NCBI GenBank assembly: GCA_027941995.1
Contig: CP115966.1
Location: 310,001-374,000 of the forward strand
DNA: 64,000 nucleotides
Source of the DNA: Erythrobacteraceae bacterium WH01K
GTDB lineage: Bacteria; Pseudomonadota; Alphaproteobacteria; Sphingomonadales; Sphingomonadaceae
Direction of reading: 5' to 3'
In this document: positions 24,836 to 26,096 of the stretch, one piece after another
How positions within the stretch are numbered: the stretch's first letter is position 1
Layout of the letters: each line of letters starts with the position of its first letter
Translations under genes and position numbers: made by a program
Notes under the pieces: model-generated
Told to the model about the DNA's origin: nothing
Seen by the model: only the letters and a program-made list of their open reading frames with translations
The model's database searches: none

Positions 24836-25368
24836 GCAGCCTGTTCACGAAGAACCGGCTGATCGGCCTCGCCATCGCGGTGATCGTCTGCGCGGCGGAC
24901 CAGTACATCAAGTGGCTGGTGCGCGTGCCGCTTGAACTGCGGGAGAAAGGCGTGATCGAGCTGATCCCGTTCTTCGACCTGCGCTGGACGCAGAATTTCG
25001 GCGTCTCGCTCGGCATGTTCGAGGCGACCAGCGTGGAAATGCGCTGGATTCTCGTGCTCGTCACCGCGCTGATCGCCGTGGTCGTCGCCATCTGGATGAT
25101 GCGCGAGAGGGCGATGGGCGACATCCTCGGCCTGGCGCTGATCCTGGGCGGTGCGCTCGGCAATATCTACGATCGTTACACCTGGGGCTACGTGATCGAC
25201 TATGCCGACCTGCATATCGGCGAATTCCGGCCCTTCCTCATCTTCAACGTCGCCGATGCGGCCATCACCATCGGCGTGTTGATAATCCTTGCCCGTTCCT
25301 TCTTCCTGCGCGACAGTGAAGAGGACACACCAAAGGACGCCGAAGCCGCGTCCCCGGAGACGAATTGA
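24832..25368 (+). CDS. lspA: Lipoprotein signal peptidase (signal peptidase II)
   Basis: 178 residues, four transmembrane helices. The catalytic aspartates lie in GNIYDRYTWGYVIDY and FNVADAAITIG. Upstream motifs AADQYIKWLV and NFGVSLGMF also match. It cleaves signal peptides of prolipoproteins in the inner membrane. It overlaps ileS at its start and the DUF3035 lipoprotein gene at its stop (TGATG). Acidic C-terminal tail. Confidence 0.96.
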   Translation: MSSLFTKNRLIGLAIAVIVCAADQYIKWLVRVPLELREKGVIELIPFFDLRWTQNFGVSLGMFEATSVEMRWILVLVTALIAVVVAIWMMRERAMGDILGLALILGGALGNIYDRYTWGYVIDYADLHIGEFRPFLIFNVADAAITIGVLIILARSFFLRDSEEDTPKDAEAASPETN

Positions 25369-25778
25369 TGCGTACCCTTGCGAAGTCCGCCATCCTGGCC
25401 CTGCCCACGCTCGCCCTTGCGGCCTGCGGCGGTGGCGGCTTGCTGGACCGTGACCGTCCGGACGAATTTGCCGTGCAGCGGCAGGCCCCGCTGGTCGTGC
25501 CGCCGGACTTCAACCTCGTTCCCCCGTCCGAAGGCGCACCGCGCCCGGTCGGCAACACCGCGCAGGAACAGGCGCTCGACGCCCTGTTCGGCGGCCCGGC
25601 CCCGCGCTCCAGCGTGGAAACCAGCGTCCTCGACCGTGCCGGAGAGGCTGCTCCCGGGATCCGTTCCGTCGTCGGCAGCGAGCGGACGAACACCGTCGCC
25701 AAGGGCCGCGTAACCCGCGACATCATCGCCGCGCCGGAAGGCGACGGTCAGGCCGCGCAGGCGGTTATTCCGGGTTAA
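25368..25778 (+). CDS. DUF3035 lipoprotein
   Basis: 136 residues from ATG 25368. A signal peptide ending in LALAAC gives a lipobox with the modified Cys near residue 20. The mature part begins with a Gly-rich linker and includes RPDEFAVQRQAPLVVPPDF, the hallmark of DUF3035, a family of short alphaproteobacterial outer-envelope proteins of unknown function. It sits directly after lspA, whose product would process it. Its stop codon lies inside the loop of the following terminator. Confidence 0.88.
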   Translation: MRTLAKSAILALPTLALAACGGGGLLDRDRPDEFAVQRQAPLVVPPDFNLVPPSEGAPRPVGNTAQEQALDALFGGPAPRSSVETSVLDRAGEAAPGIRSVVGSERTNTVAKGRVTRDIIAAPEGDGQAAQAVIPG

Positions 25779-25799
25779 GGACCCGGAATAACCTTTTTT
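25763..25799 (+). terminator. Rho-independent terminator of the ileS-lspA-DUF3035 operon
   Basis: A perfect 13-bp stem, GGTTATTCCGGGT (25763-25775) with ACCCGGAATAACC (25781-25793), a 5-nt loop TAAGG, and six Ts at 25794-25799. The TAA of the upstream lipoprotein gene (25776-25778) is in the loop, so the gene's last four codons form the left arm. Confidence 0.93.
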
Positions 25800-26096
25800 G
25801 ATTTGCGAACCCGCCTCCGCGGGTTCGTCCTCGGTGCTATTTCGACGCTTCGCGTCGAGCACCTGCGGGCGTGCAGTCGCCCTTGCGACGCGCTAGTCGC
25901 GCACCGGAATTCGCGACAAACTATTGGCTTGGGATGGTTCGGGGCCGTGAGGCCCCGCAAGGCCGACCGGCCGCCCGCAGCGACGCGACCTTCAGGTCGC
26001 ATGAGCGAGGAAGCAAGGAGCGCGGACGCGCTCCGCCCGCAGGGTCCAAACAAAAAACTCGCGCCCTGCCTCCCGCGCAACGCCTGTAACCGGGTT
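25800..26096. repeat. Non-coding run of stacked small palindromes between convergent genes
   Basis: About 300 bp with no believable gene, made of successive hairpins: 25806-25827 (9-bp stem, CTCC loop); 25833-25863 (GGTGCT/AGCACC around CGACGC/GCGTCG); four alternating complementary GTCGC/GCGAC words at 25876, 25885, 25896 and 25913; 25940-25957 (CGGGGCC/GGCCCCG); 25961-25972; 25985-26000 (GCGACC/GGTCGC); 26017-26034 (GGAGCGC/GCGCTCC); and GCAGGG/CCCTGC at 26039 and 26064. It resembles an intergenic palindromic repeat of the REP type. Copies elsewhere in the genome would confirm this. Confidence 0.6.

Follow-up and report, generated by a model that had tools for sequence, protein, structure and literature searches.

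The convergent gap between DUF3035 and thiS-thiG

The window analyzed here is a 64,000-nucleotide stretch of the genome of Erythrobacteraceae bacterium WH01K (contig CP115966.1, positions 310,001 to 374,000 of the forward strand). Within it, a DUF3035 lipoprotein-like gene and a thiS-thiG fusion gene converge on a non-coding gap rich in the hairpins that an earlier note on this DNA had described. These hairpins belong to two head-to-head copies of one modular repeat unit, which together span 25801–26057 and are separated by 33 nt. Each unit contains four hairpins (hp1–hp4). The features of the locus are as follows.

25368–25778, plus strand: DUF3035 lipoprotein-like gene, whose convergent neighbor in other genera is corC
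25763–25799, plus strand: intrinsic terminator of the DUF3035 gene, a perfect hairpin (25763–25793) followed by T6
25801–25906, minus strand: unit A, complete, with a DNA fold z-score of −5.3
25886–25906 and 25871–25882, minus strand: hp1 and hp2 of unit A
25863–25871 and 25833–25863, minus strand: core CGCCCGCAG and hp3 of unit A
25828–25833 and 25806–25827, minus strand: tag CGAGGA and hp4 (loop GGAG) of unit A
beyond hp4, minus strand: tail of unit A, short and A-rich, running into the terminator T-tract
25907–25939, no strand: head-to-head spacer of 33 nt
25940–26057, plus strand: unit B, complete
25940–25957 and 25961–25972, plus strand: hp1 (loop GTGA) and hp2 of unit B
25973–25980 and 25985–26000, plus strand: core GCCCGCAG and hp3 of unit B
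26006–26011 and 26017–26034, plus strand: tag CGAGGA and hp4 (loop GGAC) of unit B
26035–26057, plus strand: tail of unit B, GCCCGCAGGGTCC-AAACAAAAAA
26097–27095, minus strand: thiS-thiG fusion gene, which in other genera runs co-directionally with geneX

The hairpin at 25763–25793 and its TTTTTT are the ordinary terminator of the DUF3035 gene and are separate from the repeat; the T-tract abuts the A tail of unit A. Within the stretch 25800–26096, to which the earlier note had assigned the array, the repeat occupies about 25801–26057, while 26060–26096 is unrelated sequence ahead of the thiG stop codon. The stacked hairpins themselves are real, and none of 200 dinucleotide shuffles folded as well as the region, either as RNA of the plus strand (z −4.1) or as DNA of the minus strand (z −3.8). 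The alternating GTCGC and GCGAC words pointed out previously are present as parts of hp1, hp2, and hp3 in the two opposed units. The competing long-range pairings proposed for these words gained no support over the local hairpins in a fold comparison.

Anatomy of the repeat unit

The same anatomy is seen again in 170 units. Each is about 100 nt long and is ordered hp1, CAA, hp2, GCCCGCAG, hp3, CGAGGA, hp4, and an A-rich tail, and the units are assembled from interchangeable modules. Across all copies compared, the hp1 stem is variable (mostly 6–9 bp), as is hp3, hp2 has a 4-bp stem with a loop that is usually GACC or GACT, and the hp4 loop is GGA followed by C, G, or T. The words GCAAG, GCCCGCAG, and CGAGGA are conserved. 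The four hairpins form on one defined strand, and the near-invariant linkers between them are conserved across genera.

Unit pairs lying close to each other are arranged head-to-head in 19 cases and in tandem in 11, and none is tail-to-tail. The head-to-head spacers consist mostly of unrelated sequence and measure 24–36 nt in 13 of the 19 pairs. Tandem arrays also occur, with eight exact cores within one 8-kb stretch of Croceibacterium xixiisoli and four copies approximately 155 bp apart in genome G006. In many genera, the simple hp4 behind CGAGGA is replaced by another 3′ module, TAGCCAAG-hairpin-GCCGGCGCYTGAGGC (for example, at loci L020, L022, L037, and L092).

Dispersal and host range

BLAST matched the region at 16 places in the 2.9 Mb WH01K genome, one of which is 81% identical over 256 nt, nearly the whole element. 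A covariance model found 12 matches there, a lower bound, as are all per-genome counts from this model, since few candidates per genome were scored. Matches were present in 17 of the 60 genomes searched, including WH01K, and all 17 belong to the same family. The dispersed copies for which the earlier note had recommended a BLASTN search are thus present in both the genome itself and its relatives, as opposed to a single copy with nothing similar elsewhere. A covariance model of the head of the unit was positive in 49 of 198 sampled Sphingomonadales genomes, of which 47 are in the family of the window. Outside the order, it gave a single marginal match among 190 genomes sampled from the class. 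The remaining two positive genomes, G132 and G149, are incomplete and belong to another family of the order (f8); their matches may reflect transfer, contamination, or a misplaced bin.

A 27-nt core is found in at least 120 stretches of GTDB genomes. Among the core matches listed, the named isolates are Erythrobacter, Porphyrobacter, Croceibacterium, Qipengyuania, Aurantiacibacter, Tsuneonella, Pelagerythrobacter, and allies, and the named hosts are Erythrobacteraceae. The repeat is confined almost entirely to Erythrobacteraceae-type genera. Together with the extragenic location of the units, this agrees with the suggestion in the earlier note that such elements occur in intergenic regions of this family.

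The repeat was not matched in the plasmid records of PLSDB, and its core is present in 21 contigs of IMG/VR, where the single contig looked at (L244) resembles a gene-transfer-agent cluster. At L244, L236, and the WH01K loci L004 and L007, the units are situated among the capsid and tail genes of a prophage-like cluster. This is probably a gene-transfer-agent cluster, which would probably account for the IMG/VR contigs with the repeat. A search for neighboring genes returned as recurrent neighbors only conserved housekeeping loci (thiG and its neighbor, rsfS/rlmH, and rnpA). In the literature searched, whose coverage excluded subscription journals, we found no description of the family in Erythrobacteraceae, and the core words gave nothing; the available part of RepRanger (PMC12306157) gives REP counts for one Erythrobacter and contains no such family. 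This dispersed repeat family of about 100 letters is apparently new to the literature.

Placement relative to genes

Placement statistics were obtained from the loci retrieved by core match, counting gaps of 90 bp or more. The gaps with units comprised 32 convergent, 37 co-directional, and 3 divergent ones, compared with 15, 102, and 77, respectively, for the gaps without units. Convergent gaps are enriched for units (odds ratio 9.5, p = 6 × 10⁻¹¹), and divergent gaps are depleted of them (odds ratio 0.066, p = 1 × 10⁻⁹). The 11 gaps listed for the WH01K genome include five convergent, six co-directional, and no divergent ones. For many units, a stop codon is no more than 40 nt away. In co-directional gaps, the strand preference was not significant, with a sense to antisense ratio of 17:24 (p = 0.35) and of 35:46 in another count.

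Orthologous gaps occur both occupied and empty. In nine sampled genomes where it is empty, the gap between thiG and geneX measures 67–115 nt, compared with about 200–340 nt where it is occupied (L088, L092, L124, and L132). Likewise, the gap between DUF3035 and corC is 64 nt in L158, compared with 250–282 nt in the unit-bearing L091, L111, and L147. Orthologous units differ in their stems and retain the anatomy.

By analogy with the BIMEs of E. coli, the units might be architectural DNA sites. Between convergent genes, they would take up or signal supercoils, or be bound by gyrase or a nucleoid protein, and would be maintained for this purpose. The enrichment in convergent gaps, the avoidance of divergent ones, the near-constant dimer spacer, and the conservation of the linkers across genera would all suit such a role. 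However, many orthologous gaps in related species contain no unit at all, and the arrangement varies among single units, dimers, and tandem arrays, which makes an architectural site rather doubtful as the explanation.

Paired stems and the folded strand

In 30 heads of equal length, 99.2% of the cells were paired, compared with 24–46% when slid; the pairing percentage is partly circular for hp1 because this hairpin was found by a hairpin search. The covariation check envisaged in the earlier note proved positive, with 57 double-change cells in these heads against 14 in shuffles. There are 17 double-change cells in hp2, which exhibits no one-sided changes and whose pairing played no part in the selection of the units. 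The unit helices covary, and the structure is maintained. Short inverted repeats are plentiful in GC-rich genomes, and the array might accordingly be taken for chance palindromes; the dispersed homologous copies, fixed anatomy, and compensatory stems refute this reading.

The loops bear on whether the folded form is DNA or RNA. The hp4 loop is GGAT, GGAG, or GGAC in 112 units and GGAA in none, across 48 distinct stem contexts, although these counts are not independent events because the copies are related. GGAA is the RNA-stable GNRA form, whereas d(cGNABg), which GGAB fits, is reportedly a DNA-stable hairpin form (Nakano et al. 2002). The loops of hp1 and hp3 are often of the types C(GNA)G and C(GNNA)G, with the third base free; TTCA, the other common hp3 loop, fits neither rule. 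Loops that are stable in RNA (GGAA, GNRA, and UNCG) are seldom found in the units. By sequence, the loops match exceptionally stable single-stranded DNA hairpin motifs and not RNA ones. Under DNA energies, the unit strand is the better folder of the two in 112 of 133 units, whereas under RNA energies the unit strand is better in 70 of 132 and the complement in 62; the loop and strand-energy results depend on each other to some extent. G-T pairs make up 7% in hp4, and RNA would tolerate them likewise.

No Rfam family reached its gathering score in the region, and the only match above threshold in the window is one tRNA elsewhere. The best sub-threshold matches have E values above 1 and include a weak one to rsmX. 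A transcribed RNA element at 3′ ends, serving as an mRNA stabilizer, terminator, or small RNA, would be in keeping with the position just past stop codons, the stable folds, and the covariation. The hp4 loops and the CGAGGA linker also display GGA motifs, which resemble CsrA/RsmA sites and accord with the rsmX match. Nevertheless, such an element is quite unlikely in view of the insignificant strand preference in co-directional gaps, the rarity of RNA-stable loops, the lack of strand preference under RNA energies, the absence of a T-tract after the unit, and the Rfam result. From the loops, the strand bias under DNA energies, and the placement on either strand in co-directional gaps, we therefore infer that selection, or else a copying mechanism, acts on a folded DNA strand.

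Comparison with known repeats

The RAYT gene that the earlier note had proposed to look for did not appear, as the Y1_Tnp profile (PF01797) had no match in the WH01K genome. Y1_Tnp was also absent in 15 of 16 unit-bearing genomes tested, where the positive controls were detected; the remaining one, G182, carries a 162-aa frame. In the survey of 60 genomes, those with Y1_Tnp mostly lack the repeat. A Y2_Tnp search, which had no working positive control, gave zero matches. Neither a transposition intermediate nor a target duplication nor a mobilizing gene was found.

REPINs are characterized by inverted doublets, dispersal, extragenic 3′ placement, and tandem arrays (PMC3116915). The REPINs and GTAG-REPs that accompany RAYTs in Pseudomonas and E. 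coli share with the present units their dispersed and extragenic occurrence, inverted doublets, location downstream of genes, and presumed folding of single-stranded DNA. They differ in that they consist of one palindrome of 20–40 nt, whereas the present units comprise four hairpins over about 100 nt, without the GTAG tag at the palindrome foot and without a RAYT detected in the WH01K genome. Despite the shared traits, mobilization as a strict RAYT-dependent REP or REPIN is very improbable given the distribution of Y1_Tnp and the missing tag, and it is largely refuted for extant genomes; an ancestral RAYT, since lost, is possible.

The CGTC-REPs (Di Nocera 2013, PMC3733652) are likewise alphaproteobacterial and form head-to-head dimers, with spacers of 20–100 nt. 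No dedicated transposase is known for them; in the present family, the search for one covered Y1_Tnp and Y2_Tnp. They are defined by a CGTC tag, an 8–9 bp stem starting with AT, and a CCA tail, whereas the present units generally lack CGTC, have no AT-initial stem or CCA tail, and contain several hairpins each. The CGTC at some hp4–tag junctions is only a coincidence. In Croceibacterium xixiisoli (L049, 8290–8330 and 9080–9230), CGTCATGCCGGACTTGATCCGGCATCCA fits the description of a CGTC-REP and is a distinct element adjoining units, so that two REP types lie side by side. The BIMEs of Enterobacteriaceae are mosaics of alternating palindromes and linkers between genes, for which binding of gyrase, IHF, or Pol I is a further criterion. 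They share the mosaic intergenic layout with the present family; their sequence is unrelated, and their unit anatomy and phylogenetic range differ.

The family works like REPs and REPINs and is of the REP/BIME kind, but because neither a RAYT, nor the GTAG tag, nor the CGTC, AT-stem, and CCA features were found, it is classed with neither the RAYT-REPs nor the CGTC-REPs. The REP-type mosaic of the earlier note is therefore an apt working analogy that stops short of a classical REP, which would have a RAYT, a GTAG or CGTC tag, and one 20–40 bp palindrome.

Inversion at the locus and interpretation

In most sampled genera, geneX follows thiG and DUF3035 faces corC. Two congeneric genomes, WH01K and G001, differ in that DUF3035 and thiG face each other across the dimer and geneX comes after corC. 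The adjacency of thiG and DUF3035 led us to seek the reciprocal junction, which was found between corC and geneX. In G017, thiG and corC are 141 kb apart and oriented such that one inversion yields the order in the window. The inverted segment is approximately 110 kb long (about 336.06–445.7 kb of the WH01K contig), extending from about window position 26060 to beyond the window end. The inversion, with its junctions DUF3035–thiG and corC–geneX, is specific to the genus of the window among the genomes compared, and further rearrangements of the thiG/corC region occur in other genera.

The dimer in the window lies at one of the inversion breakpoints, and both breakpoint gaps hold units in other genera; G017 has no unit in either its DUF3035–corC or its thiG–geneX gap. 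The dimer is reversed between the window and G001, with the unit carrying the GTGCTCGA-type hp3 beside DUF3035 in one and beside thiG in the other. Recombination between inverted units is a natural candidate explanation for the inversion. Alternatively, the dimer could have arrived after the inversion instead of causing it.

Taken together, we assign a probability of roughly 0.6 to the reading that the array consists of two head-to-head units of a non-autonomous dispersed DNA repeat of REP/REPIN-like character, including the following mechanism. The selected form would be a folded single DNA strand, as exposed during replication. Copies would spread or be lost as DNA hairpins through an enzyme other than a detectable Y1/RAYT of the genomes tested, and the stems would stay matched by selection or by template switching within hairpins. 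Dispersed copies may also favor rearrangements, of which the inversion found here would be one. More tentatively, the family might represent a class of mobile single-stranded DNA elements, in which the four-hairpin unit is recognized and copied by a non-Y1 enzyme, the loops serve stability as single-stranded DNA, and inversions between copies reshape chromosomes.

How alphaproteobacterial REPs fare without a transposase is an open problem (PMC3733652), to which this family contributes a rich case whose anatomy is sharply defined. It offers a computable signature that separates selection at the DNA level from that at the RNA level (GGAB and not GGAA loops, and unit-strand stability under DNA energies only), orthologous sites that are occupied or vacant across many genera, and an inversion that may be associated with the repeat. 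Culturable Erythrobacteraceae thus allow a direct test of how REPs move in the absence of RAYTs and of whether they are DNA or RNA elements. In the congener G001, the spacer of the dimer (L054, about 2130–2280) contains an inserted inverted pair of another short repeat, CTGAGCCTGTCGAAGG / CCTTCGACAAGCTCAG.
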